DNA of 64,000 nucleotides, from assembly GCF_027533845.1 (NCBI RefSeq), contig NZ_JAPZVN010000006.1, positions 1 to 64,000 on the forward strand, in the 5' to 3' direction. A model generated the notes under the pieces. It worked only from the letters and a program-made list of their open reading frames with translations. It did not search any database and had not been told where the DNA came from. Source of the DNA: Streptomyces sp. RPT161. Lineage in GTDB: Bacteria; Actinomycetota; Actinomycetes; Streptomycetales; Streptomycetaceae. The position numbers and the translations under genes were made by a program. The first letter of the stretch is position 1, and each line of letters starts with the position of its first letter. Below, one piece after another: positions 4,457-27,440 of the stretch.

Positions 4457-4944
4457 CGCAGTATTCCGAGCGGCTCGTGCTGGCCGCCGCCGGGCCGAAC
4501 ACCTGTCGGTCGCATGCCGGTTGGCACGTGAGGTCCCGTAGCGGCGCTGCCGACGGGAAGCTCACCCGATTGGGCGCGTGTGGTTCCGCTGGCTTGAGGC
4601 AGGCGTACCCCAACGTTTCGAGGAGAGCACAGAAGGGAGACCGAGGAGGTCGTCGCGAACCCCCCCACCGATGGGAGGTGGTTGACCAGGACACAACGTG
4701 GTGCTTCGCCCGTTCTGCTGCTCTGTCACACGGCGAAGCATGGCTCTGGGCGGGGACACGAGCGGGTCCCGGGACACATTCACAAGTCCCGCTCGGTCCC
4801 CGCCAACCTGTGTCCCGGGACGACAGTACGGGCGAGGAGGACGCCGGCACCGCGAGGACAAGGACTTCGGACAACCGTGGTGGATGAATCCCCGTGGCCG
4901 GGGTAGCCGCCGTTGCACAGATCCAGAACTTCGGAGGTGCCGAC
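4457..4944. other. 488-bp gene-free stretch before the STAS gene
   Basis: No convincing coding frame. It holds two copies of the 10-bp palindrome GTCCCGGGAC (4766-4775 and 4812-4821), annotated separately. The rest is probably the 5' region of the STAS gene. Confidence 0.5.
4766..4821. repeat. paired GTCCCGGGAC palindromes forming a 13-bp inverted repeat
   Basis: GTCCCGGGACACA at 4766-4778 is the exact reverse complement of TGTGTCCCGGGAC at 4809-4821, with a 30-base spacer. Each arm also contains the self-complementary GTCCCGGGAC. It may be a two-site operator or an RNA stem about 125 bases before the STAS gene. Confidence 0.5.
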
Positions 4945-5370
4945 TTGTCATCCGAAACCGCGCCGCTGTCCATCGATGTGGCCGTGCGTCAGCCTGATGT
5001 GGCGGTGGTGTCAGTCGGTGGTGATCTCGACGTCGATACCGCGACCGAACTGCACTACCAGTTGGCCAACCAAATCGCCCACGGCCGCAGGAATCTGGTG
5101 CTCGACCTTTCGGCGGTTCCCTTCATGGACTCCTCGGGCCTCAACATCATCCTGCGCACCTTGCAGGAGGCGCGGCGGATCGGGGGGAGTGTGCAGGTGG
5201 CGGCACCGACGTCGGCGGTGCGCAGGATCCTGGAACTGACCGGAGTGGGTCTGGCCACGCCGATCCGCGAAACGGTCGACGAGGCGATGCGTGGGGTCGC
5301 GGACGCGGTCGAGACCGCCAAGCGCGGCAGGCAGGACGACGAGCCCGCGGTGGACCGTGCGGAAGACTAA
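4945..5370 (+). CDS. STAS-domain anti-sigma factor antagonist (RsbV/SpoIIAA-like)
   Basis: A 141-residue protein with one STAS domain (about residues 10-105). The key segment is LVLDLSAVPFMDSSGLNIIL, in which the first Ser of D-S-S-G is the expected phosphorylation site. RsbV-type proteins bind an RsbW-type kinase when unphosphorylated and so free the sigma factor. The TTG start at 4945 is chosen because a perfect GGAGGT sits 6 bases upstream; GTG 4894 would add 17 residues without a good ribosome binding site. It probably works with the RsbW-like kinase at 22814-23254 and the SigB-family sigma factors, although no kinase gene is adjacent. An acidic tail (DDEPAVDRAED) ends the protein. Confidence 0.88.
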   Translation: MSSETAPLSIDVAVRQPDVAVVSVGGDLDVDTATELHYQLANQIAHGRRNLVLDLSAVPFMDSSGLNIILRTLQEARRIGGSVQVAAPTSAVRRILELTGVGLATPIRETVDEAMRGVADAVETAKRGRQDDEPAVDRAED

Positions 5371-5458
5371 GTGCGGGTCAGGGGAGAGCCGCGCAGGAAA
5401 AGTCACCCAGGGGTACATACCCGTGCGTACCGCTCCACAGACCGGGTAAACGACCGCC

Positions 5459-6934
5459 ATGAAACGACGTCCCGCCAGAGCAAGGCGACTCATTTGCGTT
5501 GACCAGATCGTGTTCGGCCGGATCGCCGCCCGGACCTGGCCGTTCGCCGAATCGACACTGCCACGGCTCAGCCGGGCCGCCGACCATGGTGTGCTCTGGA
5601 TCGGAACGGCCGCCGTGATCGCGGGTCTCGGTGGTAAGTCCGGGCGGCGAGCGGCCGGGCGCGGGCTCGCGTCGCTGGCGTTGGCATCGGCGGTGGTGAA
5701 CACCGTGGGCAAGCGGCTGGTGCGCCGACCGCGTCCGCTGCGGGACGCGGTCCCGGCCATCCGGCAGCTGCGACGGCAGCCGTTCACCACTTCCTTCCCG
5801 TCCGGGCACGCCGCCTCGGCCGCTGCCTTCGCGGCCGGAGTGGGTCTCCAATCCCCGCGCTGGGGTGCGCTGGTGGCGCCGGTGGCGGCGTCCGTGGCGT
5901 TCTCCAGGGTGTACACCGGCGTCCACTACCCGAGTGACGTGCTGGCGGGTGCGGCCATCGGAGTGGGCGCCGCCGCCGTGGTGCGTGCGCTGGGCGCCGA
6001 CCGACGGGAGTCGAAACCACCGCGCGTGGCGGCCCCGGCGCTGGACGCCGGTGAGGGCCTGGTCGTCGTGGTCAACAACACCTCGGGTGTGCCGCCCCTT
6101 CTGGTACCGCCCGCGGAGCGGCTGCGGGCCGCTCTGCCGAAGGCACAGGTGATCGAGGCGACCGAGGACGACGACTTTCCGGGACTCATGGAGAAGGCGG
6201 TCCGCCTTGCCGCTGAGTGCGGCGGCGCTCTGGGCGTCTACGGCGGTGACGGAACCGTCAACACCGCGGCGGCGATCGCCTCCCGAGAGAACGTACCGCT
6301 CGCGGTCTTCCCCGGCGGTACGCGTAACCACCTCGCGATGAACCTCGGCGTGGAGGAGATCGAGGACACCGCCCGCGCCGTGCGGAACGGCCAAGCCACC
6401 GCGATCGATCTGGCGTACTTCGACGGAGCCGACGGTGAGCGCGTTCCGTTCGTCAACACCTTCAGCATCGGTGCCTATCCGGAGCTGGTACGCGTCAGGG
6501 AACGCTGGTCCCGCCGACTGGGTAGCTGGCCCGCCAGCGTGCTCGCGGCGCTCCACGTGTTGCGCACCGCCGATCCGGTGCCGGTGGTCCTCGGCGGCCA
6601 ACGGCGCCTGGTGTGGCTGGTCTTCGTGGGGAACTGCACCTATCGCGGCAACGGGGTGGCACCCCTGCGCCGAAGCGACCTGGCGGACGGCGTGCTGGAC
6701 GTCCGCGTAGTGGAGGCTGGCCCCTTCGCCCGCGCGCGGCTGATGGCGGCGGCCGTCACCGGAGCGTTGGGGCGTTCCCCGGTCTACTCCGAGAAGAAGC
6801 TGCGCGCCCTGCGCATCGAAGGACTCGGCGAGGACGCACACCTCGCCTACGACGGTGAGGTCAGCCGTGCCCCCAGCACGGTGAGCATCGCCAAGGCGTA
6901 CAAGGCGCTCGTCGTCTACCGCCCCGGAGTGTGA
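5459..6934 (+). CDS. PAP2 phosphatase - diacylglycerol kinase fusion protein
   Basis: A 491-residue two-domain lipid enzyme. The N-terminal half is a membrane PAP2 phosphatase with all three signatures: K85-x6-RP (KRLVRRPRP), PSGH at 114-117, and SR-x5-H-x3-D at 149-160. Residues about 200-490 form a DagK/sphingosine-kinase-like domain with GGDGTVN (262-268) and PGGTRN (285-290). PAP2 removes phosphate from phosphatidate-type lipids, and DagK adds it to diacylglycerol or a related lipid, so the two halves could run opposite or sequential steps at the membrane. ATG 5459 is the first start that precedes the first helix. The YihY/BrkB gene follows after 49 bases and is probably co-transcribed. 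Confidence 0.9.
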   Translation: MKRRPARARRLICVDQIVFGRIAARTWPFAESTLPRLSRAADHGVLWIGTAAVIAGLGGKSGRRAAGRGLASLALASAVVNTVGKRLVRRPRPLRDAVPAIRQLRRQPFTTSFPSGHAASAAAFAAGVGLQSPRWGALVAPVAASVAFSRVYTGVHYPSDVLAGAAIGVGAAAVVRALGADRRESKPPRVAAPALDAGEGLVVVVNNTSGVPPLLVPPAERLRAALPKAQVIEATEDDDFPGLMEKAVRLAAECGGALGVYGGDGTVNTAAAIASRENVPLAVFPGGTRNHLAMNLGVEEIEDTARAVRNGQATAIDLAYFDGADGERVPFVNTFSIGAYPELVRVRERWSRRLGSWPASVLAALHVLRTADPVPVVLGGQRRLVWLVFVGNCTYRGNGVAPLRRSDLADGVLDVRVVEAGPFARARLMAAAVTGALGRSPVYSEKKLRALRIEGLGEDAHLAYDGEVSRAPSTVSIAKAYKALVVYRPGV

Positions 6935-14756: not shown

Positions 14757-15236
14757 TCAGGCGGAGTGTGCGTCAGCGGTGTCGTCGTGGATCTGCGTGG
14801 CGGCGGCGGCGCAGAACGCCTCCAGACCCTCCAGTAGCGCGGTCCGCTTTCGGGCGGGCATCTGCGCCAGGACGGCCTGCAGTTCACGCTCGCGGCGGGA
14901 GCGTAGATCGGCCAGGAAGGCCCGGCCCCGACTGCTGAGGTGCAGCCGCAGTTCGCGGCGGCTGGTGCTGTGGGGCGCGCGCTCGACGAAGCCCACCGCC
15001 TGGAGGCGGTCACACAGCCGGCTCGTCGACGGGGGAGTGGAGCTCAGGGCGTCGGCGAGGGTGCGGAGGTTGATCCCCTCGTTGTGTTCGAGGATGAACA
15101 GCACGCGGAGCTGGGACACCGACACCGGGGCGGTCGACGCCCGGCCCCACAGGACCTCCAGCAGTTCGGCGGCCTCTGAGGCCACGCGCGCCACCTCGTC
15201 GGGCTGTCGGCGTGAAGGGGAGGCAGTCACGGTCAT
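14757..15236 (-). CDS. MarR family transcriptional regulator (first copy)
   Basis: A 159-residue winged-helix regulator. It has LRVLFILEHNEGINLRTLAD, the recognition helix STPPSTSRLCDRLQAVGF, and a wing (RRELRLHLSSRG). It resembles the MarR at 23500-23985 in these parts and in its C-terminal helices, so the two are paralogues. Both lie beside partner-switching genes. It is divergent from the SpoIIE phosphatase at 15384, and the 147-base gap contains three GGCTA repeats (15268-15290) that may be binding sites. No sensing cysteine is obvious in the DNA-binding domain. Confidence 0.88.
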   Translation of the reverse strand: MTVTASPSRRQPDEVARVASEAAELLEVLWGRASTAPVSVSQLRVLFILEHNEGINLRTLADALSSTPPSTSRLCDRLQAVGFVERAPHSTSRRELRLHLSSRGRAFLADLRSRRERELQAVLAQMPARKRTALLEGLEAFCAAAATQIHDDTADAHSA

Positions 15237-15383: not shown

Positions 15384-16547
15384 GTGAACAGATTCGAGGC
15401 CGCCGAGCGGGCTCTGCGTAAGGCGGCCCCCCACCAGTTGGTGGACGCCCTCGGCGCGGTGCTGACCGACCGGTACGCGGCGAAGTCCGTCGAGCTTCTC
15501 CTGGTGGACTACGGGCTGACCGTACTCCAGCCGGTGACCGCCCTGCCACACACCGGGGAACCCGTGCCGGTGCACAACAGTCCCGCCGGGCGGGCGTTCG
15601 TGGTGCAGCAGTCCGTCGTCGAGGGCGTCGGCGAGGGGATGGCGAAGGTCCACTGCCCGGTGACCGTGCGCGGGGATCGGCTGGGCGTGCTGTGCCTGGT
15701 GGTGCCGACCGACGTCTGCACTCCGGAACGGCTCGCCGAACTCGCGGACGTCGCCGAGGTCCTGGGACACGAGGTCGTCGTCGCGGAGCGGGACACGGAC
15801 CTGTATCTACGGGCGCGCCGCAAGGACCGGTTGACACTCGCGGCCGAGATACAGTGGCAGCTTCTGCCAGGCCGCTCCTGCGCCCGGCCCGAGTACGAAC
15901 TGGGTGCCCACCTGGAACCGGCGTACGCGATCTTCGGCGACAACTTCGACTGGTCGGCGACCGAGGACCGGCTGATGCTGTACGTCACCAACGGCATGGG
16001 CGAGGGGATAGAGGCCGCGCTCCTGACCAGCCTGGCGATCAACGCGCTGCGCAACGCCCGGCGTGCCGGTCTGTCGATCGCCGACCAGGCCGCGCTGGCC
16101 GATCAGGCAGTCTACGCCCATTACCGCGGGGCGTCGTACCTGTCGGTGCTCATGGTGGACTTCGACCTCGCCACCGGCCGGGCGCGGGTCGTCGACGCCG
16201 GATCGCCGCGGATGTGGCGTTTGCGGCGCGGCGGTGCCGTGCAGCCCATCACCTTCGAGGCACAGCTGCCGTTGGGCATGTTCGAGGAGACCGACTACGT
16301 CGCGGAGGACTTCCAGGTGGAACCCGGCGACCGGCTCGTGTTCGTCAGCGACGGGGTGTACGAGGCCGCCTCACCCTCGGGCGAACGCTACGGTGAGCGG
16401 GCACTGGCCCGAGCCATCGCCGCCACCCAGCTGCTGCCGGCGGCCGAGGTGCCGCGCGAGGTGCTCAGACAACTGGCAGCTCACCGCGGTAGACCGGTGC
16501 CGCACGACGACGCTCTCGTGGTGTGTCTCGACTGGCACGGACGGTAG
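15384..16547 (+). CDS. GAF-SpoIIE phosphatase paralogue with altered active site (D to N)
   Basis: A 387-residue protein with an N-terminal sensor region of GAF type (about 1-135) and a C-terminal PPM/SpoIIE phosphatase domain (about 150-385). The metal motifs present are GDNFDWS (185-191), SDGVYEA (322-328) and HDDALVV (374-380). The motif normally written D-x-x-GHG reads TNGMGEG, so the metal-binding Asp is Asn203 and the His of GHG is Glu. Such phosphatases dephosphorylate STAS antagonists; this one may be weak or act as a binding protein. The GTG start has no clear ribosome binding site but agrees with the paralogue at 21441-22658. It is divergent from a MarR gene. Confidence 0.85.
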   Translation: MNRFEAAERALRKAAPHQLVDALGAVLTDRYAAKSVELLLVDYGLTVLQPVTALPHTGEPVPVHNSPAGRAFVVQQSVVEGVGEGMAKVHCPVTVRGDRLGVLCLVVPTDVCTPERLAELADVAEVLGHEVVVAERDTDLYLRARRKDRLTLAAEIQWQLLPGRSCARPEYELGAHLEPAYAIFGDNFDWSATEDRLMLYVTNGMGEGIEAALLTSLAINALRNARRAGLSIADQAALADQAVYAHYRGASYLSVLMVDFDLATGRARVVDAGSPRMWRLRRGGAVQPITFEAQLPLGMFEETDYVAEDFQVEPGDRLVFVSDGVYEAASPSGERYGERALARAIAATQLLPAAEVPREVLRQLAAHRGRPVPHDDALVVCLDWHGR

Positions 16548-16612
16548 GCCGGCGAAGCCGAAGCACGGACGCGGGGCACGACCTTGGGCCTGAGCCGTGG
16601 GAGCACTTCGCG

Positions 16613-16637
16613 GCATAGCGATTGCCAAACGGGGTAC
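16613..16637 (+). promoter_or_regulatory. candidate SigB-type promoter of the stressosome cassette
   Basis: GCAT (16613-16616), 15 bases, GGGTAC (16632-16637). This fits GNNT-N14-16-GGGTAC/T. The -10 lies 85 bases before the rsbR ATG. The -35 consensus is loose, so chance is possible. Confidence 0.45.
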
Positions 16638-16654
16638 GACACCGACGCCGAAGT

Positions 16655-16668
16655 TTGCCGTATGACAA
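16655..16668. promoter_or_regulatory. TTGCCGTATGACAA motif (second copy)
   Basis: A one-base variant of the motif at 14597-14610, placed 55 bases before the rsbR start and just downstream of the candidate SigB promoter. It could be an operator shared by genes of this block. Confidence 0.35.
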
Positions 16669-16722
16669 GGAAGCGCACGACGTTCCCACGGCGGGTGCCG
16701 GGAACGGTGGTACGGATTGGAG

Positions 16723-17625
16723 ATGCGGGTGCCGGAACACGAGACGGAAGCGCAGTGGTCGCCGTCCAGGGAGGTCGGGGACTTCCTGCGGCGCTTCCGT
16801 GAGCAGATCGCCCAGCGGTGGGCGGACGCGACGCTGTTTCGGACGGTGTTCACCGTCTCCCGGGACGAGGCGGTGGAGGCGTGCAAGGTCGTGATCGACG
16901 CGCTGTCCGTGGTCGCCGCCTCGGAGCGTATCGAGGACATCGAGGCACCGGGCTTCGCGGTCGTGCGCGAGCAACTGGGTCGCATGTCCGCGTCGCATGT
17001 CCGAATGGGGCGCACTCCGGCACAGATCGCCAACGAAGTGGCCGCGCTACGGGTTCCGGTTACCGAACTGCTGGCTGCGGAGTCGCGCGACCTGCCGACC
17101 GAGCGGGTCCAGCGGACCACGTTGGCCCTGACGGTCCTGATGGGCACCCTGCGCCTGGCGGTGATGGAGACCACGCTCACCGAGGGCGAGGAACTCATCG
17201 ACCGTCAGCGCCAGCAGCTCCTTGAGTTCGCCACTCCGGTGATCAAGCTGTGGGACGGGATCGTGGCCGTTCCGCTCATCGGCACGCTGGACAGCGCGCG
17301 CAGCCAGGTGGTGATGGAAAGCCTCCTGGAGGCCGTCGTCGCCCAGCAGGCGCGCTTCGCGATCCTGGACATCACCGGCGTGCCGACCGTCGACACCCTC
17401 GTCGCCCAGCATCTGATGAAGACGGTGGCGGCAGCGCGGCTCATGGGCGCGGAGTGCATCGTCTCCGGTATACGGCCGGCGATCGCCCAGACGATCGTGC
17501 ACCTCGGCATCGACCTGGGATCGGTCGTCACCCGCGCCACCCTGGCCGACGCCTTGGCGTTCACTCTGCAGCGACAGGGCACGGGCGCCGCGGTCGGCGT
17601 GTCCGCGGAGGTCGATCCGACGTGA
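16723..17625 (+). CDS. rsbR: RsbR-type stressosome sensor (STAS)
   Basis: A 300-residue protein with an N-terminal all-helical, globin-like sensor region (about 1-165), a linker helix and a C-terminal STAS domain (about 175-285). The STAS core reads FAILDITGVPTVDTLVAQHL; T225 in V-D-T corresponds to the RsbT-phosphorylated Thr of Bacillus RsbRA, and further Thr residues (T270, T273) lie where the second site is expected. RsbR and RsbS assemble the stressosome that traps RsbT. ATG 16723 is used; GTG 16729 has a better spaced GGAG and would remove two residues. Its stop overlaps the rsbS start, the first link in a tightly coupled operon. Confidence 0.93.
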   Translation: MRVPEHETEAQWSPSREVGDFLRRFREQIAQRWADATLFRTVFTVSRDEAVEACKVVIDALSVVAASERIEDIEAPGFAVVREQLGRMSASHVRMGRTPAQIANEVAALRVPVTELLAAESRDLPTERVQRTTLALTVLMGTLRLAVMETTLTEGEELIDRQRQQLLEFATPVIKLWDGIVAVPLIGTLDSARSQVVMESLLEAVVAQQARFAILDITGVPTVDTLVAQHLMKTVAAARLMGAECIVSGIRPAIAQTIVHLGIDLGSVVTRATLADALAFTLQRQGTGAAVGVSAEVDPT

Positions 17626-18041
17626 CGTGCCCTCGTACGGAGGTGATTGGGGCGCACGTCCCGGTACTCACCCTGGGCGACGTACTGTTGGTGACCGTCC
17701 AGGGGGACCTGGACGACCAGACCGCCGAGTACCTGCGCCAGGACATCACCCGGGCGGTCGCGGAGACCACCGCCACCGGCGTGGTGATCGACGTCTCCGG
17801 AGTGGAGGTCGTCGACTCCTTTCTGGGACGGGTCCTCGCCGACATCGCCGCCACCGTCAAACTGCTGGCGGCACGGACCGTGGTCGCCGGAATCCGTCCC
17901 GCGGTGGCGATCACGCTGGTGGAACTCGGCCTGACGCTGCCCGGGCTGTGCACCGCCCTCCACGTCGAGCAGGCCCTGCGACTGCTGCGGGAGCCGTCCG
18001 GAACGCACCGTGGCGCGCATCCACGGCAAGGGGGCGTGTGA
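17622..18041 (+). CDS. rsbS: RsbS-type stressosome scaffold (STAS)
   Basis: A 139-residue single STAS domain. GVVIDVSGVEVVDSFLGRVL contains S66 in V-D-S, the position of the RsbT-phosphorylated Ser of Bacillus RsbS. RTVVAGIRPAVAITLVELGL matches the RsbS family well. RsbS is the minimal stressosome scaffold that binds RsbT. The GTG start at 17622 overlaps the rsbR stop by four bases (GTGA) and has GGAGG 10 bases upstream. The tail beyond residue 125 is basic and probably disordered. Order and overlap with rsbR and rsbT are the same as in Bacillus. Confidence 0.93.
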   Translation: MTCPRTEVIGAHVPVLTLGDVLLVTVQGDLDDQTAEYLRQDITRAVAETTATGVVIDVSGVEVVDSFLGRVLADIAATVKLLAARTVVAGIRPAVAITLVELGLTLPGLCTALHVEQALRLLREPSGTHRGAHPRQGGV

Positions 18042-18481
18042 TGCACGTGCCCAGTACCGTCGCCGCGAGGTTGCCGATCGGCTCGGACATGGACCTGACC
18101 TGGATCAGGCAACACGTCCGACAGGCCGCCGCCGAACTCGGCTTCGGACTGGTCCAGCAGACGAAACTGGTCACCGCGGCCAGTGAGCTGGCGCGTAACA
18201 CCCTTGTACACGGTGGAGGCGGTCACATGGAGTGCACACCGGTGGCGCGCGGCCGGATCCATGGCCTGCGCCTCGTGTTCACCGATTCCGGGCCGGGGAT
18301 TCCCGACACGGAACTCGCCTTGTCCGACGGTTACACCTCCGGCGGCGGGCTGGGCATGGGCCTGGGCGGTGCCCGGCGGCTGGTGCACGAGTTCACTCTC
18401 GACAGCCGGCCGGGAGAGGGCACCACCGTCACCATCACCGCCTGGGCCTCCGGGCCTCCCTACCCCCGCAGGGCGTTGTGA
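18041..18481 (+). CDS. rsbT: RsbT-type switch kinase
   Basis: A 146-residue GHKL-type Ser/Thr kinase. N-box: ASELARNTLVHGG. G1: FTDSGPGIPD. G2: GGGLGMGLGGARRLV. The domain fills nearly the whole protein, as in RsbT. In the known pathway RsbT phosphorylates RsbR and RsbS under stress, leaves the stressosome and activates a SpoIIE-type phosphatase. The ATG at 18041 shares one base with the rsbS stop, and the stop (18479-18481) shares one base with the next ATG. Such coupling suggests fixed stoichiometry. The SpoIIE phosphatases at 19521, 15384 and 21441 are candidate targets. Confidence 0.93.
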   Translation: MHVPSTVAARLPIGSDMDLTWIRQHVRQAAAELGFGLVQQTKLVTAASELARNTLVHGGGGHMECTPVARGRIHGLRLVFTDSGPGIPDTELALSDGYTSGGGLGMGLGGARRLVHEFTLDSRPGEGTTVTITAWASGPPYPRRAL

Positions 18482-19524
18482 TGACCCGGGTATGGGACGT
18501 TCCGGTGCACGATTCCACCCGTGTGCGCGATGTCCGCGTCGCCGTGGAGGCGGCGTGCGGCCACACCGGGCTGACCGCCGACCGCACCGCCGACGCGGAC
18601 CTCGTGGCCACCGAACTCGCCACCAACCTGCTCAGACACGCCGGTGGTGGACGAGTCCTGATCGACACGCCCAACGACGGGCAGCCCGTGGTGCAGATCC
18701 TGGCCGTGGACCACGGGCCGGGCATCCCCGACGTCCTCGCCGCACTGCGTGACGGCTACTCGACCAGCACCTCGCTGGGCGCGGGCCTGGGCACCTGCCG
18801 TCGTGTCGCGGACGCCTTCGACCTGCACACCGTCCTCGGTCGCGGCACGGTCGTGCTGGCCCGGCTCGCCGATCGCGGCGCCGCTCGGGCGGGCGCCGCG
18901 AGACCGGCCGAGGAACTGCCCCGGGTCGGCGGGGTCCATGTGGCGCTGGAGGCGGAACACAGCGGCGACGCATGGGCATACGTACGTGGCGAGAACCGGC
19001 TGACCCTGATGCTCGCCGACGGCCTCGGCCATGGCCCCGAAGCCGCGCGGGCCTCCACCACAGCCGTGGACGAACTGCGCCGCATGCCCGATCTGACACC
19101 GGCGGAGATGCTCCGGCGCCTTGACAGCGCGCTGCGCCGGACCCGCGGAGCCGCGATCGCGCTGGTCCAACTCGCCCACGGCACCGACCGCCTGGTGGTC
19201 GCCGGTGTCGGCAACATCGGCGCGCGGCTGCGCACGGACGGCACCTGGCATTCGCTGCTCTCCCGGCCGGGCATTGTCGGCGCCTACCTCCCCGCCCTCA
19301 TCCCCGAGCGCCAAGTGCCCTGGAACCAGGACAGCCTGCTGGTCCTGCACAGTGACGGCCTGCCCAGCCGCTGGATCCCGCCCCAGGACGCGCGCCTGGA
19401 CGCCCATGACCCAGCTGTGATCGCCGCGGTCGTGCTGCGCGACGCCAGCAGCTCGGCGCGCCCGGCGCGTGACGACACCACAGTGGCCGTAATGACCCCT
19501 GCACCGCTGGACCGCCCGCTATGA
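18481..19524 (+). CDS. GHKL kinase - SpoIIE phosphatase fusion (RsbX-like)
   Basis: A 347-residue fusion. Residues 1-130 form a second RsbT-like kinase domain (ATELATNLLRHAGGG, AVDHGPGIPD, LGAGLGTCRRV). Residues about 150-340 form a compact PPM phosphatase of RsbX type (SGDAWAYV, LADGLGHGPEAA, HSDGLPSRW, RDDTTVAVM), with all metal-binding aspartates present. In Bacillus, RsbX removes phosphate from RsbS and RsbR to reset the stressosome. Here kinase and reset phosphatase are joined in one chain, so this protein may both add and remove the phosphate. It overlaps rsbT by one base and the next gene by four (ATGA). Confidence 0.9.
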   Translation: MTRVWDVPVHDSTRVRDVRVAVEAACGHTGLTADRTADADLVATELATNLLRHAGGGRVLIDTPNDGQPVVQILAVDHGPGIPDVLAALRDGYSTSTSLGAGLGTCRRVADAFDLHTVLGRGTVVLARLADRGAARAGAARPAEELPRVGGVHVALEAEHSGDAWAYVRGENRLTLMLADGLGHGPEAARASTTAVDELRRMPDLTPAEMLRRLDSALRRTRGAAIALVQLAHGTDRLVVAGVGNIGARLRTDGTWHSLLSRPGIVGAYLPALIPERQVPWNQDSLLVLHSDGLPSRWIPPQDARLDAHDPAVIAAVVLRDASSSARPARDDTTVAVMTPAPLDRPL

Positions 19525-21386
19525 CCCGCACCCACGCCTGGCCCGTCGCCAGTGTCTCCGACGCGGCACACGCCCGTATCGCCGTGGCGCGCCTCGCGGC
19601 GGCCGGAGGCGTGCCCGCCGTCGAACGTGCCCGGCTGCTGACGACGCTGACCGCCCGGTTGAGAAGGTGTCTGGAGGAGCCCGGATCCTGGCAGTTGGTC
19701 TTCGAGGCGCTCGACGCACCAGCGGACGGCGAACCCGGATGTCTCCGGCTCGCCCTGCGTCGCATCGGCCGGTCCTCAGCAGAGCCTTCCTGGCAGAGGA
19801 CCGTCGTGTGCCCCGACCCCGAGCGCGCGGCTCGTCAGGCCGCCGAGCCGCCCACTCCGCTCGCCGAGGCGTTGCTCCTCGGGGACGACGACACCGCGGC
19901 GCTCCTGGGCCGCCTGGACGAGCAGGAGCGACTCGTCCGGCTCCACCGGGAGGAACTCCACCACACCAACCAGGGTGTCCTCGCCCTCCACGCCGAACTG
20001 GACGCGGCCGACCGCACGCAGCGCGAGTTGCTCGCCGCGGAGAAGGCGGCCCGCGCGGAGGCGGAAGGCGCCCGCCACCGGCTCACCTTCCTGGCCGACG
20101 CCAGCGCTGCCCTGACCGCCTCGCTCAGCCACCGGGAGATCCTCCGCCGCCTTCCTGAGCTCCTCGTGCCGCAACACGCGCGCAGCGCCGACGTCTGGCT
20201 GCTGGAGGGCGACGACGCCCAGACGCGGGCCCCGCATCCCGCGGCCGCCGTCGTCGCCGCGCGCAGCGGGCGCCCGCAGTACGCCGCGGACCATCCGGGA
20301 AACCTGCCCGGCGTCGGCGATCTGCCGCCCTCGGCACTGGCCCCGGGAGTGCCCCTGCTCTGTCTGCCGCTCACCGCCCGGCGCTCCACGCTGGGGGTGC
20401 TGACCCTCACCCCTCCCGGTGACCGTTTCGACACCGACAACACCGTCATGCTCATCGAACTCGCCCGCCGGGCCGGGATCGCGATCGACCACGCCCTGCG
20501 GTACGAGCACAACCGCGACATCGCCGAAACACTCCAGCGCACGCTGCTCACCGACCTGCCGGTCACCCCGGGACTCCAGCTCGCCGCCCGCTATCTGCCC
20601 GCCACCCACGGCCTGAACATCGGCGGAGACTGGTACGACGCCTTCGCCCAGCCGGACGGCAGCCTGATCGCCGTCATCGGCGATGTGACCGGGCACGGAC
20701 TCCACGCGGCGGTCATGATGGGCCAGCTGCGCAACGCGCTGCGCGCCTACGCCGTGGACGGCGACTCCCCGGGGCGGTTGCTCACCCGCCTCCATGCCTT
20801 CCTCCACCACCTGGAGCCGGACCTGTACGCCACAGCGGCCATCGCCCGCTTCCGCCCCGGCGACCCCACCGTCACCTGGGCCGCGGCGGGCCACCCGCCG
20901 CCCGTGGTACGCACCTCGGAAGGGCGGGTTCGGATCCTGGACGTCAAGCCGGGGGCCATGCTCGGCATTCCGCTCAGCCAGGGCATCAGGGACCACACCG
21001 TGGAACTCCCACCAGGCTCCACCCTCGCGCTGTACACCGACGGCCTGGTCGAACGGCGCAGGGAGGGGCTGGACCCGGGCATCGCCCGCCTCGGCACGGC
21101 GCTGGCCGAGATCGACGCGGCGGACCTGGCCCAGGACCTGGACGGCGTGGCCGAGACCGTGCTGGGGCGCATGCTGCGCGACTCCGAGCGTGAGGACGAC
21201 GTGTGCCTGCTGCTCTGCCACACCGGCACCGAACCCCTGGGTGCCCCTGGCGCGCCGCGGCTGCGCAGGCGCCCGCACCAGCCGGCAGCGTGCGCGCCAG
21301 GCTCCGCCAAGCCGATCACGTCGCCCCCGCCGAGCGGCGCACAGGTCCCACCACCACCGTTGGTCACGGACAATGCACAGGACTGA
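19521..21386 (+). CDS. GAF-SpoIIE phosphatase with long coiled-coil linker (RsbU/RsbP-like)
   Basis: A 621-residue protein. The N-terminal part (1-120) is unassigned. A coiled coil spans about 130-200 (EQERLVRLHREELHHTNQGV and onward). A GAF-like domain follows (about 190-335), then a complete SpoIIE phosphatase domain with GGDWYDA near 368, IGDVTGHGLHAA near 388, YTDGLVERR and a terminal EDDVCLLL. A Pro-rich tail of about 50 residues closes it. It is the only phosphatase in this cassette with all catalytic motifs intact, so it is the best candidate for the RsbT-activated RsbV phosphatase. Its ATG overlaps the preceding stop (ATGA). Confidence 0.9.
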   Translation: MTRTHAWPVASVSDAAHARIAVARLAAAGGVPAVERARLLTTLTARLRRCLEEPGSWQLVFEALDAPADGEPGCLRLALRRIGRSSAEPSWQRTVVCPDPERAARQAAEPPTPLAEALLLGDDDTAALLGRLDEQERLVRLHREELHHTNQGVLALHAELDAADRTQRELLAAEKAARAEAEGARHRLTFLADASAALTASLSHREILRRLPELLVPQHARSADVWLLEGDDAQTRAPHPAAAVVAARSGRPQYAADHPGNLPGVGDLPPSALAPGVPLLCLPLTARRSTLGVLTLTPPGDRFDTDNTVMLIELARRAGIAIDHALRYEHNRDIAETLQRTLLTDLPVTPGLQLAARYLPATHGLNIGGDWYDAFAQPDGSLIAVIGDVTGHGLHAAVMMGQLRNALRAYAVDGDSPGRLLTRLHAFLHHLEPDLYATAAIARFRPGDPTVTWAAAGHPPPVVRTSEGRVRILDVKPGAMLGIPLSQGIRDHTVELPPGSTLALYTDGLVERRREGLDPGIARLGTALAEIDAADLAQDLDGVAETVLGRMLRDSEREDDVCLLLCHTGTEPLGAPGAPRLRRRPHQPAACAPGSAKPITSPPPSGAQVPPPPLVTDNAQD

Positions 21387-21440
21387 CCGACCGAGCACAC
21401 GACTACGGGCCCAACACGCCCCGAACAGGACGTGGACGCT

Positions 21441-22658
21441 GTGACCAACGACGATAGACGCAGGACCGCCGAGGCCGTCCTGCGCGAGGCTGCGCCGCAC
21501 GCGCTGATCCCCGCCGCCCAAAGGCTGCTGGCGGACCGAGTGGGGGCGCGGTCCGTCACGTTGCTGATGGCCGACTACGGTTCGGCGGTGCTGCAACCAG
21601 TGCCGCAGCCGCCGCACGGTGCCGAGGCGGTACCAGCTCACCACGGCCCTCCCGGTCGCTCCTACTCCACACAGGTCCCCGTGGTGGAGCGGACCGACGA
21701 CCCGGCTGCCGTCCTGGCCCACCTGCCGATCACCGTGCGCGGCGACCGGTTGGGAGTGCTCTGCGTCGAGCTGCCCGCAGCCGACGCAGACGCGGCCACG
21801 GTGTCCGAACTGGCCGAGTTCGCCACCGCGTTGGGCCACGAGCTGCTCGCCGCGGACCGGGACACGGACCTGTACCTGCAAGCCCGCCGCCGCAAGCGCC
21901 TGACCCTCGCGGCCGAGATGCAGTGGCAACTGCTGCCCGGTCGCGGCTGTGCCCGGGACGAGTACGTCCTCGGCGCCCATCTGGAGCCCGCCTACGCCAT
22001 CGGCGGCGACAACTTCGACTGGTCCACCAGCGCCGAACACCTCACGGTCACCGTCACCGACGGTATGGGCCACGGGATCGAGGCGTCGCTCCTGACCAAC
22101 CTGACCGTCAACGCGCTACGCAACGCGCGCCGCGCGGGGGTCGGCATCGCGGACCAGGCCAGCCTTGCTGACCAGGCGGTCTACGCCCAATACGGGGGCA
22201 GGGTCTACGCGTCCACCCTGCTGCTGCGGTTCCACCTCGACACGGGTCTCGTGGATGTCGTCGACGCCGGTTCCCCGCAGTTGTTCCGCCAGCGTGATGG
22301 CACCGTCGAACTCATCGAACTGGAAGGCCAGTTGCCGCTGGGCATGTTCGAGGAGACCCAGTACGAGGAGCAGACCTTCCATGTCGCCCCGGGTGACCGG
22401 CTGGTCATCGTCAGCACCGGTGTGCACGGGGCGCGTTCGCCGGACGGCGGATTGTACGGCGAACGTACACTGCGGCGCACCATCAGCGCCTCGCGGCTCG
22501 CCACGCCGCACGAGACCGCCCGGGCCGTGGTCCACGGCCTCATCGAGCACTTCGGCAGCGACGATCTCGCCGCCGACGCCGCGGTGGTGTGCCTGGACTG
22601 GAAGGGCCGCCCCGGCGCCCCGCGCACCGATGAACCGCCTCCGTCCACCCGCACATGA
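21441..22658 (+). CDS. GAF-SpoIIE phosphatase paralogue with lost C-terminal aspartates
   Basis: A 405-residue paralogue of the protein at 15384-16547 with the same layout: GAF-like part about 1-145, SpoIIE domain about 160-390. Here the first half of the active site is intact (GGDNFDWS at 188-195, TDGMGHG at 206-212). The later motif SDG reads STG (T326 for Asp), and the final D-D pair reads A-D (A378). Two metal or water ligands are therefore missing, and catalytic activity is doubtful. It may act as a decoy or scaffold for a STAS partner. GTG 21441 is used; GTG 21432 is also in frame. It follows the intact phosphatase after 54 bases. Confidence 0.85.
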   Translation: MTNDDRRRTAEAVLREAAPHALIPAAQRLLADRVGARSVTLLMADYGSAVLQPVPQPPHGAEAVPAHHGPPGRSYSTQVPVVERTDDPAAVLAHLPITVRGDRLGVLCVELPAADADAATVSELAEFATALGHELLAADRDTDLYLQARRRKRLTLAAEMQWQLLPGRGCARDEYVLGAHLEPAYAIGGDNFDWSTSAEHLTVTVTDGMGHGIEASLLTNLTVNALRNARRAGVGIADQASLADQAVYAQYGGRVYASTLLLRFHLDTGLVDVVDAGSPQLFRQRDGTVELIELEGQLPLGMFEETQYEEQTFHVAPGDRLVIVSTGVHGARSPDGGLYGERTLRRTISASRLATPHETARAVVHGLIEHFGSDDLAADAAVVCLDWKGRPGAPRTDEPPPSTRT

Positions 22659-22813: not shown

Positions 22814-23254
22814 GTGTCTACCATGACCACGATCGGGGTAGTCGACAACCGTATGTCGTCGCTGCGTTGGGACAGAGCCTATGAAGCCCGTGATCCGAAC
22901 GTCATCGCCGCCGCGCGGGACTTCGCCACGGAGTTCCTGGAGCATGCCCAGCGCACCATGCGGACGCGGCTCGACGATCGGGTCATCCAGGACGCCCAAC
23001 TCGTCGTGAGCGAGCTGGTGACCAACACCAGCAAGTACGCCCCTGGTCCGTGTGAGCTGAGCCTGGAGCTGGCACCCGGGGGAATCGAAGTCACTGTCTG
23101 CGACAGCAACCCCATCGCGCCTCGGCCCGCTCCGCAGGACCCGGACCGCGTGGGTCGGCACGGCCTGGAGATCGCGGCCGCGCTCTCCGAGTACCTGTAC
23201 ACGCGGCGTCACGAGGGCGGCAAGTCCGTCCACGCCCGCATAGCCTTGAGTTGA
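22814..23254 (+). CDS. RsbW-like anti-sigma kinase (HATPase)
   Basis: A 146-residue GHKL-type kinase domain. The N-box is VVSELVTNTSKYAPGP. The G1 region reads VCDSNPIAPRPAP, the D-S-x-P-x-x-P form common in the many streptomycete RsbW-like proteins, followed by GRHGLEIAAALSE. Such proteins bind a sigma factor or phosphorylate a STAS antagonist. It is the only stand-alone RsbW-type kinase in the window, so it may pair with the STAS protein at 4945-5370 and one or both sigma factors. GTG 22814 follows GAGAGGGGCGG; ATG 22823 is an alternative. It lies 155 bases after the phosphatase cassette. Confidence 0.85.
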   Translation: MSTMTTIGVVDNRMSSLRWDRAYEARDPNVIAAARDFATEFLEHAQRTMRTRLDDRVIQDAQLVVSELVTNTSKYAPGPCELSLELAPGGIEVTVCDSNPIAPRPAPQDPDRVGRHGLEIAAALSEYLYTRRHEGGKSVHARIALS

Positions 23255-23343: not shown

Positions 23344-23499
23344 GGCGCTAGGACGAACAACTGCCCGTACCGACCCCAGCGGAGAGATTTCCCGTGCCGT
23401 ACCGTGATGGCGTCGTCCGCCGTGGGATAGCAGCGGTCCCGATGCGGACCGCCCCGATTCGCCGCGTGACGAACAGCCCTTGTGGAGGTTGAGTGGCCC

Positions 23500-23985
23500 A
23501 TGGGCTTTGGCCAGAGTGCCGGGCCGCGTCCGGATGAATCCGCCGAGCGGATGTCCGGTCCCGTGCAGGAACTCGTCGCGGTGTGGTCAAGAGCCTTCCA
23601 TCTCGCGGCGCCCCACGTGTCCACGTTGCAACTGCGCGCCCTGGAGGCCTTGGAGGACCGGCGCAAGCTCAATCTGACCGGTCTGGCGGCGGAGTTGGAC
23701 ATCGGCATGCCCACCGCGAGTCGGCTGTGCGACCGTCTGGAGGCGGCCGGTTTCCTTGAACGGTCCGTTCAGCCGCGCAACCGGCGGGAGGTTCTGCTGG
23801 CGGTCACCGCGCAAGGCAGGCGGCTGCTTGATGACATAGCTGCGCGGCGACGTCGGGCGCTGGCCGCTGTACTGACGGCGATGGACCCCGAAGAACGCGC
23901 CGCACTGGTGCGGGCGTTGCAGGCATTCCTGGCCGCCTCCGTGACGGCGCGAACGTACGGATCGCGCGGCACCGGGAGCGAGTAG
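23500..23985 (+). CDS. MarR family transcriptional regulator (second copy)
   Basis: A 161-residue winged-helix regulator with LQLRALEALEDRRKLNLTGL, the recognition helix IGMPTASRLCDRLEAAGFLE and the wing NRREVLLAVTAQG. It is a paralogue of the MarR at 14757-15236; SRLCDRL is shared, and the C-terminal helices match in length and pattern. ATG 23500 is chosen; GGAGG lies 11 bases upstream, and GTG 23482 would be inside the ribosome binding site. The two copies bracket the stressosome cassette, which suggests a common origin and possibly cross-control. No co-transcribed gene follows directly. Confidence 0.88.
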   Translation: MGFGQSAGPRPDESAERMSGPVQELVAVWSRAFHLAAPHVSTLQLRALEALEDRRKLNLTGLAAELDIGMPTASRLCDRLEAAGFLERSVQPRNRREVLLAVTAQGRRLLDDIAARRRRALAAVLTAMDPEERAALVRALQAFLAASVTARTYGSRGTGSE

Positions 23986-26043: not shown

Positions 26044-26168
26044 GTTGGGACGGCCCGGACGAGTACCCGGACGCCTCCTCCCGGCTCCGGCGGGAGCCAT
26101 CCCTGCCAGACGATCACGCGTGGAGGCGTCGCGTCGCTGCATCTCCGAACACGGCAGGTGACGGAAGG

Positions 26169-27440
26169 ATGGATGACGCGGGATTCGGCGCCTTGCTCGG
26201 CGAGTTGCTGGAGGAGTCGCACCACCTGCCGATGGAGGGTATACCCGCCCTGGTGGCGCGGGCGGCCAAGGAACTGGGGCTGGACGAGGCCACCGTGTAC
26301 CTGGCCGACGTGCAGCAGGAGCGGCTCGTGCCGCTGGGGACGGTACCGGACAGCAGCCAGGGCGGCCTGCCGGTGGACGCAACGCTGGCCGGCTGGGCCT
26401 ACCGCACGGTCTCGTTGCGGGTGGCCGAGGACGGCCAGGGGGGACTCGCGGCCTGGCTGCCGATGATGGACGGAATCGAGCGGATCGGTGTCTTGGGCCT
26501 GCACGCCCGATCGCTGGACGGCACCCTGCTGGGCCGCTGCCGGGCGCTGGCGTCGTTGACGACCCTGCTGCTGCTCTCCAGGAGCATGTACAGCGACACC
26601 TACCTGCAGGCGACACGCGCTCGGCCGATGCATCTGCCGGCGGAGATGGTGTGGGCCTTCCTCCCGCCACGGACCGTGGGCACCCGGCAGGTCACCTCCA
26701 GCGCCGTCATGGAACCGGCCTACGACATCGGCGGCGACGCCTTCGACCATTCGCTGTCCGACAAGGCGCTGGACGCCACGGTCATCGACGCGATGGGCCA
26801 TGACCTGGCCTCGGGCCTGGCGGCGGCCGTCGGCCTCGCGGGCTGCCGGGTCGCCCGCCGCGCCGGCGGTGATCTGAAGGACATCGTGGAGACCATCGAC
26901 CACGCCTTGGCACAGTGGCTCCCGCACCGCTACCTCACCGCGGTCTTCGCCCACCTCGACCTGGCCAGCGGTCAGCTCAGGTGGGCCAACTGCGGTCACC
27001 CGCCGCCGCTGCTCATCCGCGGCCAGCACGTCATCTCCGGCGCCCTGGAACACCACGCCGAACTGCCACTCGGCCTGGGACCCGGCTACCCCGACGTACC
27101 CCGCCGCATCCATCACGCCCAGTTGGAGCCCGGCGACCGCGTGCTGTTGCACACCGACGGCGTCACCGAAGCACGCTCCGGCACTGGCGAGGTGTTCGGG
27201 GAACGGCGCTTCACCGACTTCGTGATCCGCGCCATCGCCGCCGGTGAACCAACGCCCGAGGCGCTGCGCCGACTGCTTCACGCGGTCCTCGACCACCGGC
27301 GGGGGCAGCTCGACGACGACGCCACCATCCTGCTCTTCGAATGGCACCCGCCGTCGGCGGAACCCACGGACGCATCAGGGATCCAGACCGCAACCCACCT
27401 ACCCGGCAAGGGCGTCAGGGCCGCACCCGCGAACGGCTAG
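26169..27440 (+). CDS. GAF-SpoIIE phosphatase
   Basis: A 423-residue protein with a GAF-like N-terminal half (about 1-150; LGLDEATVYLADVQQERLVP) and a SpoIIE phosphatase domain (about 170-395). The motifs are GGDAFD, VIDAMGHDLASG (GHD in place of GHG), HTDGVTEARSG and DDDATILLF, so all metal-binding aspartates are present and activity is likely. A disordered tail of about 30 residues follows. It resembles the SpoIIE paralogues at 15384 and 21441 in layout. The ATG at 26169 directly follows GGAAGG, closer than ideal. It probably acts on a STAS antagonist of this block, but which one cannot be told. Confidence 0.88.
   Translation: MDDAGFGALLGELLEESHHLPMEGIPALVARAAKELGLDEATVYLADVQQERLVPLGTVPDSSQGGLPVDATLAGWAYRTVSLRVAEDGQGGLAAWLPMMDGIERIGVLGLHARSLDGTLLGRCRALASLTTLLLLSRSMYSDTYLQATRARPMHLPAEMVWAFLPPRTVGTRQVTSSAVMEPAYDIGGDAFDHSLSDKALDATVIDAMGHDLASGLAAAVGLAGCRVARRAGGDLKDIVETIDHALAQWLPHRYLTAVFAHLDLASGQLRWANCGHPPPLLIRGQHVISGALEHHAELPLGLGPGYPDVPRRIHHAQLEPGDRVLLHTDGVTEARSGTGEVFGERRFTDFVIRAIAAGEPTPEALRRLLHAVLDHRRGQLDDDATILLFEWHPPSAEPTDASGIQTATHLPGKGVRAAPANG

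Follow-up and report, generated by a model that had tools for sequence, protein, structure and literature searches.

Gene content of the locus

The window, that is, the entire 64,000 nt stretch of DNA that was analyzed, contains two paralogous SpoIIE genes, denoted here A and B, that flank a stressosome cassette (Table 1). The reading frames of both genes are open between the coordinates given there, in agreement with the initial annotation of the locus, and the encoded proteins are 58% identical. The cassette itself includes complete phosphatase domains, namely, those of the GAF-SpoIIE protein and of the HATPase-SpoIIE fusion; the latter, with its RsbX-like SpoIIE part, is a single ORF located immediately 3′ of the RsbT-like gene. 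MarR-family matches are present in the window at positions 14757-15236 and 23482-23985. A divergent MarR-family match lies upstream of A in most of the related loci listed (by inspection), and a second one, convergently oriented, often lies 3′ of B; the window differs in that this second match and B share a strand.

Table 1. Genes and metal-ligand motifs of the locus (positions within the window).
Feature	Position	Strand	Remarks
Protein A	15384..16547	+	387 aa; N-terminal alpha/beta domain, helical linker and SpoIIE/PPM domain; N-D-D type
A motif 2, NGMGEG	15990..16007	+	N203 at the SpoIIE D628 position; phmmer alignment
A SDG (S322-D323-G), retained	16347..16355	+	D323 equivalent to D746
A DD (D375-D376), retained	16506..16511	+	D375 equivalent to D795 by family alignment
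RsbRD-type STAS protein, stressosome scaffold-like	16717..17625	+	Pfam RsbRD_N and STAS
RsbS-like STAS protein	17604..18041 (start tentative)	+	Pfam STAS
RsbT-like ATPase	18038..18481	+	Pfam HATPase_c
HATPase-SpoIIE (RsbX-like) fusion	18478..19524	+	All three Asps present
GAF-SpoIIE phosphatase	19521..21386	+	Canonical site GGDWYD/DVTGHG/TDG/DD
Protein B	21441..22658	+	405 aa; paralogue of A; D-T-A type
B motif 2, DGMGHG, retained (D207)	22059..22076	+	
B STG replacing SDG (S325-T326-G)	22413..22421	+	
B A378-D379 replacing DD	22572..22577	+	
RsbW-like protein adjoining B	22814..23254	+	HATPase_c_2 (Pfam)
Paralogue C, third and distant	26157..27440	+	DAMGHD/TDG/DD, all three Asps; 31% identical to A

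Domains and metal ligands of A and B

The Pfam SpoIIE domain (PF07228) spans residues 194-384 of A (E 7.3e-42) and 199-387 of B (E 2.9e-39), with scores of 143.9 and 135.5 bits, respectively, compared with the curated cut-off of 25. SpoIIE was the only Pfam domain identified in either protein at E 0.001; in particular, this search found no N-terminal RsbT-binding dimerization domain of the RsbU type. The N-terminal domains of A and B are without any Pfam name, and that of A is putatively GAF-like. AlphaFold single-chain models have mean pLDDT values of 81.7 (A) and 80.5 (B), with a low-confidence linker in both. The models match SpoIIE 5ucg, Rv1364c (3ke6), 3pu9 and RsbX, and the PPM fold is thus predicted to be retained in both proteins.

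The Mn ligands of SpoIIE are D628, D746 and D795 (PMC3517971). The numbering of the first two positions in A and B follows that paper, and the match to D795 rests on our own family alignment. In phmmer alignments with the solved SpoIIE of Bacillus subtilis, N203 of A is paired with the SDGMGNG Asp and D323 of A with that of the downstream SDG; B aligns in the same manner. Every residue named in the initial annotation was confirmed: in A, N203 replaces the motif-2 Asp, with SDG and DD retained; in B, D-G-M-G-H-G is retained, with SDG replaced by STG (T326) and DD by AD (A378). The change from His to Glu in the GHG of A is not a ligand loss. Thus, neither chain carries all three Asp ligands, as an active PPM phosphatase would, A lacking the first, and B the second and third. 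With the shared ligand missing from A and the two remaining ones from B, neither protein would be able to assemble the usual binuclear center by itself.

There are 51 SpoIIE matches in the genome to which the window belongs; for S. coelicolor, PMC8346170 gives 44 RsbU/RsbP homologues. All three Asps are retained in 43 of the 48 complete SpoIIE domains (5 within the window and 43 from elsewhere in the genome; L286 and L287, which contain partial domains, were set aside). The five exceptions are A, B, L264, L279 and L281, and two ligands are missing in B alone. Single ligands are replaced in L264, where the SDG Asp is Val (YTVG), in L279, where the first Asp of DD is His (EHD), and in L281, where the motif-2 Asp is Ser (SVTGSG).

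Conservation of the ligand losses

Relatives were taken from 76 loci around B-like matches, from loci and stretches of further genomes, and from the window. Altogether, 227 distinct rows were aligned, of which 211 scored 300 bits or more against A or B. Collection of the rows relied largely on similarity to B, and they are therefore not a random sample. Apart from L076 and L208, which are N-type outgroups, 69 rows are nearest to B and make up the B set.

The N-D-D combination was found in 133 of the 140 distinct A-like rows (per site, motif-2 N in 134, the Asp of SDG in 139 and the first Asp of DD in 137). Motif 2 itself, NGMGEG, is nearly fixed, with N in 134 and E in 129 of the 140 rows. The seven rows that deviate from N-D-D are L099 (S-D-A), L126, L192 and L194 (all D-D-D), L193 (G-D-D), L195 (cut short) and L202 (D-C-E). 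The N-type extends to sequences with 45-50% identity in other families of the class. Among the B-like rows, the motif-2 Asp is present in 69 of 69, as are GGD and DG, and an Asp is never found at the SDG position (T in 35, S in 33 and R in 1) or at the first position of DD (A in 40, S in 16, T in 5, H in 3, one each of N, M, V and E, and a gap in 1). The residue preceding the motif-1 GD is mostly F, H, Y or R in A, and G in all 69 B rows. Twenty later stretches, some of which contain genes already represented in the alignment, agree with these counts: all 16 A-like genes are N-D-D and all five full B-like genes have Asp, then Ser or Thr, then a residue other than Asp; one further B is truncated.

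As the relatives retain the same two losses, the changes look selected rather than random. Canonical residues in the orthologs, which the initial annotation named as the outcome that would speak for random changes, were thus not what the alignment revealed. In a comparison of the window with Streptantibioticus rubrisoli (L008), dN/dS was 0.18 for A, 0.25 for B and 0.30 for the canonical phosphatase of the cassette, values that come from one close pair only. A and B thus show conserved ligand loss in orthologs combined with purifying selection, the latter as judged from this one pair, as would be expected of PPM pseudophosphatases.

Several loci deviate from the common organization. In L192 (G216) and L194 (G153), a gene of the A clade with DGMGTG/SDG/DD takes B's position behind the cassette, and an N-type A lies on the other side. 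In L202 (G091), a strongly degenerate paralogue at 4531-6357 lies directly behind an N-type A; motif 2 is retained as DGTGPG, SDG and DD are lost, and the motif-1 Asp is changed. The A of L099 (G017), which adjoins a B, is S-D-A and hence has lost two ligands. In L223 (G016), a B-like gene on the minus strand (1778-2902) that adjoins A breaks off immediately behind motif 2 and continues into unrelated sequence, so that only the N-terminal domain and the N-half are retained. This truncation is probably a rearrangement; G016 also has another, full B-like gene.

Co-occurrence and linkage of A and B

The distribution of the two genes was surveyed in 80 genomes that were hand-picked, mainly for contiguity, and are therefore not a random sample (family threshold, E 1e-55 or better). 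In this survey, motif 2 together with identity served to distinguish A-like from B-like genes; the residue counts given above come from the alignments. Family members were present in 50 of the 80 genomes; B was found in 9, and A in all 9 of these (Fisher p = 0.023 for the 80 picked genomes, ignoring kinship). In the other 41 of these 50 A-bearing genomes, A-like genes occur but B does not. Among a further 20 genomes, 18 have both genes (the handles G161 and G654 have the same hits). In the other two of these 20, G655 and G660, draft genomes of which the completeness is not stated, B was found without A. Three more genomes, G233, G661 and G662, have B together with an A-like sequence, which is incomplete in G233 and fragmented in G661; a fourth, G663, duplicates G016. 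Altogether, an A-like sequence is present in 30 of the 32 distinct B-bearing genomes that were searched whole, A having been read residue by residue in part of these and judged by identity in the rest. Thus, mutual dependence of the two genes is not seen in this sample: A occurs without B in the 41 genomes mentioned, and B without A in the two drafts.

The arrangement of the genes was compared across 59 loci that carry a gene nearest to B, including the window (and L076, which is really N-type). RsbR/RsbT matches lie between A and B in 27 loci, 14 loci are A-B tandems separated by less than 500 nt, and 5 have other arrangements. In the remaining 13, the stretch holds no A-like match over 250 bits; 7 of these 13 end at a contig end, and in another of the 13 loci, L044, A adjoins B with a broken frame. 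A broken A frame beside B is also present in the genome of L028. In 13 of the 14 tandems, the exception being L063, there is no RsbR/RsbT match in the stretch, which indicates that the A-B pair can stand without an adjoining cassette. The linkage of A and B thus survives rearrangement, with or without adjoining stressosome genes. In G249, A and B are both present, 5.6 Mb apart. No fusion of A with B was noticed.

Origin of B and evolutionary rates

B forms a single clade, with SH-aLRT values of 99 for 107 rows and 100/99 for 43 rows; identity-based thinning of the 107 gave the 43, and every row from seven loci (L216, L213, L202, L215, L195, L115 and L061) was omitted as too long, incomplete or otherwise odd. 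When the tree is rooted on canonical outgroups, some N-type sequences diverge earlier than the B clade and others later, so that the motif-2 Asp of B is most simply explained as regained from Asn. An early-branching B was not rejected by the AU test on the 43 rows (p = 0.0535 when L212 is part of the constrained group and 0.101 when it is not), and the regain of the Asp, although probable from these sequences, is therefore not proven.

Distance correlations and rates of the domain halves were calculated for 26 pairs, thinned from 44. Correlations between A and B were highest for the two N-terminal domains (partial 0.42) and for the two C-halves (partial 0.56); shared species history can be the source of such correlations. 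For the C-half of A and the N-half of B, the partial correlation was 0.01, with power limited by shared history and by the 38-residue length of the N-half. The 26 thinned pairs gave no half-specific rate shift in what is a weak test (N/C ratio 0.717 versus 0.715): a column bootstrap on the first 14 of the 26 pairs placed the N/C difference between -0.44 and 0.68. A shift would be predicted if the N-half were the sole contribution of B and the C-half that of A. Relative to the N-terminal domain, the PPM domain evolves more slowly in A than in B.

Discussion

The co-occurrence of A and B and a linkage that persists through rearrangement support the view that they form a functional pair. The initial annotation had proposed that the complementary losses reflect either a heteromer or two pseudophosphatases that hold a STAS protein. 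This proposal is supported in part; however, the prevalence of A-like genes without B means that A cannot always need B, and the term module is not apt for A everywhere. Of the two alternatives, the second accounts for a larger share of the evidence, provided that the pseudophosphatases operate as a pair. On the other hand, SDG, DD and the N and E of motif 2 are strictly conserved in A, as would rather be expected of a functional site than of a simple scaffold.

The structural precedent for a site shared between chains is SpoIIE itself. In its crystal dimer, strands beta1-3 are exchanged and D628 is donated by the partner chain, so that in SpoIIE 590-827 (3T91/3T9Q) motifs 1-2 and SDG/DD come from different chains (PMC3517971), the same split as between A and B. 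The losses fall exactly on either side of the exchanged segment, and an A:B pair swapped in this way would hold one complete site. An obligate A:B heterodimer exchanging beta1-3 with motifs 1-2 would combine the motif-1 and motif-2 Asps of B with the SDG and DD Asps of A, the site made of the Asn of A and the Thr and Ala of B would be dead, and activity would need both proteins, as in an AND gate. Consistent with such an arrangement, GGD and DG of B are invariant while its C-terminal ligand positions vary, A retains SDG and DD, the ligand halves of the two chains are complementary with the exception of L099, and the position of B among N-type rows makes its Asp look regained while the other two ligands were lost. 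In addition, other neighbors of N-type genes have a motif-2 Asp, namely, L192/L194 (D-D-D) and L202 (D-C-E). However, the SpoIIE dimer is a homodimer, unlike the heterodimer required here. Moreover, its PP2C domain is mainly monomeric in solution, the swap was later described as arising on crystallization, and the A624I variant crystallized unswapped (PMC3517971, PMC5468089). Bulky side chains occupy the A624 position in both families (L 125, V 10, I 3, M 1 and F 1 in the 140 A-like rows; L 49, V 16, I 5 and M 1 in the 71 B-like rows, here including L076 and L208). Furthermore, neither a tie between the C-half of A and the N-half of B nor a half-specific rate shift was detected in the comparisons above, which are of limited power, A lives without B in most A-bearing genomes, no complete composite site would exist in L099, where A is S-D-A, and the AU test leaves room for an early-branching B. 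We therefore consider an exchanged, shared site unlikely.

It is somewhat more plausible, but still doubtful, that A is catalytically active through an altered metal site, in which N203 and E207 take over part of the Asp/His chemistry, and that B is its dead regulatory paralogue. The near fixation of NGMGEG, the N-type in sequences of 45-50% identity, the retention of the other ligands in A, the many genomes with A and without B, and the slower evolution of the PPM domain of A all agree with this possibility. However, loss of a metal ligand usually abolishes the activity of PPM enzymes, and N was reverted to D at least twice within the A clade (L126; L192/L194), which suggests that Asn is not simply equivalent to Asp. 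Furthermore, the counterpart of N203, D628, coordinates M1 in the SpoIIE crystal (PMC3517971, PMC5468089). Together with the carbonyl of G629, a residue that the switch helices move, D628 is also predicted to coordinate M2 (PMC5468089). A and B could also be substrate traps, each binding a phosphorylated STAS protein without hydrolysis and linked only by a common pathway. The fold retained in the predictions and the RsbR/RsbT matches that separate A from B at 27 of the 59 loci would fit such a role, but the 14 tandems, 13 of them in stretches without an RsbR/RsbT match, do not, and we regard it as improbable. Finally, B, and perhaps A, might be duplicates in relaxed decay, as could be suspected from the PPM domain of B, which, relative to the N-terminal domain, evolves faster than that of A, from the truncated B beside A in L223, and from the disrupted reading frames of A that adjoin B in L044 and in the L028 genome. 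Decay is already disfavored by the dN/dS values of 0.18 and 0.25 and by the invariant motif-2 Asp of B, and appears highly improbable.

The explanation that we favor, to which we assign about an even chance, is that A and B are conserved non-canonical SpoIIE/PPM proteins that form a paired regulatory, adaptor-like module in the partner switching of Streptomycetaceae and are not ordinary phosphatases. Judging from the ligand positions, each protein is probably inactive alone: with no full binuclear metal center in either, each by itself would be inactive or nearly so. A might hold one metal via its retained SDG and DD Asps, and B none, or only weakly. The two proteins may meet via the N-terminal domain and the helical linker, in the style of an RsbU-type dimer, to form an A:B heteromer, within which B would modulate A or hold a partner. 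From the gene neighborhood, this partner might be a STAS protein or an activator from the cassette. The non-enzymatic pair as a whole, with the contact between A and B included, could equally well turn out right or wrong.

Among known systems, A and B resemble RsbU, RsbP and SpoIIE of B. subtilis in the SpoIIE/PPM fold, in the combination of an N-terminal domain with a helical linker and in the stress-signaling neighborhood, but differ in their incomplete metal ligands and, by Pfam, in having no RsbU N-terminal domain. E. coli RssB is described as a truncated, inactive PPM adaptor under RsbU-like linker control (PMC12143880). By analogy, it would share with A and B a PPM domain without catalysis and an adaptor role in stress signaling; however, RssB is truncated at the C-terminus and has a receiver domain, whereas A and B are full-length proteins with point losses of ligands. 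PHLPP2 and TAB1 have a PPM fold with a single metal and are described as PPM pseudophosphatases (PMC12002173), but these are animal proteins from an unrelated context and, unlike A and B, do not form a complementary pair. Among the titles and abstract openings listed in searches of an open-licence library, none names the A/B pair or any pair of SpoIIE pseudophosphatases from Streptomyces.

Streptomyces species possess dozens of SpoIIE-type phosphatases. Should A and B, against our expectation, constitute a split-site PPM phosphatase, with one complete site per A:B heterodimer and none in either homodimer, dephosphorylation would require both sensors at once. Such a split phosphatase, with one site restored by the pair, would be a two-input gate, the domain swap of SpoIIE would gain a biological role, and the Asp apparently regained in B while the other ligands were lost would be its evolutionary trace. 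A conserved pair with reciprocal ligand losses is a directly testable case of the evolution from enzyme to regulator in partner switching.
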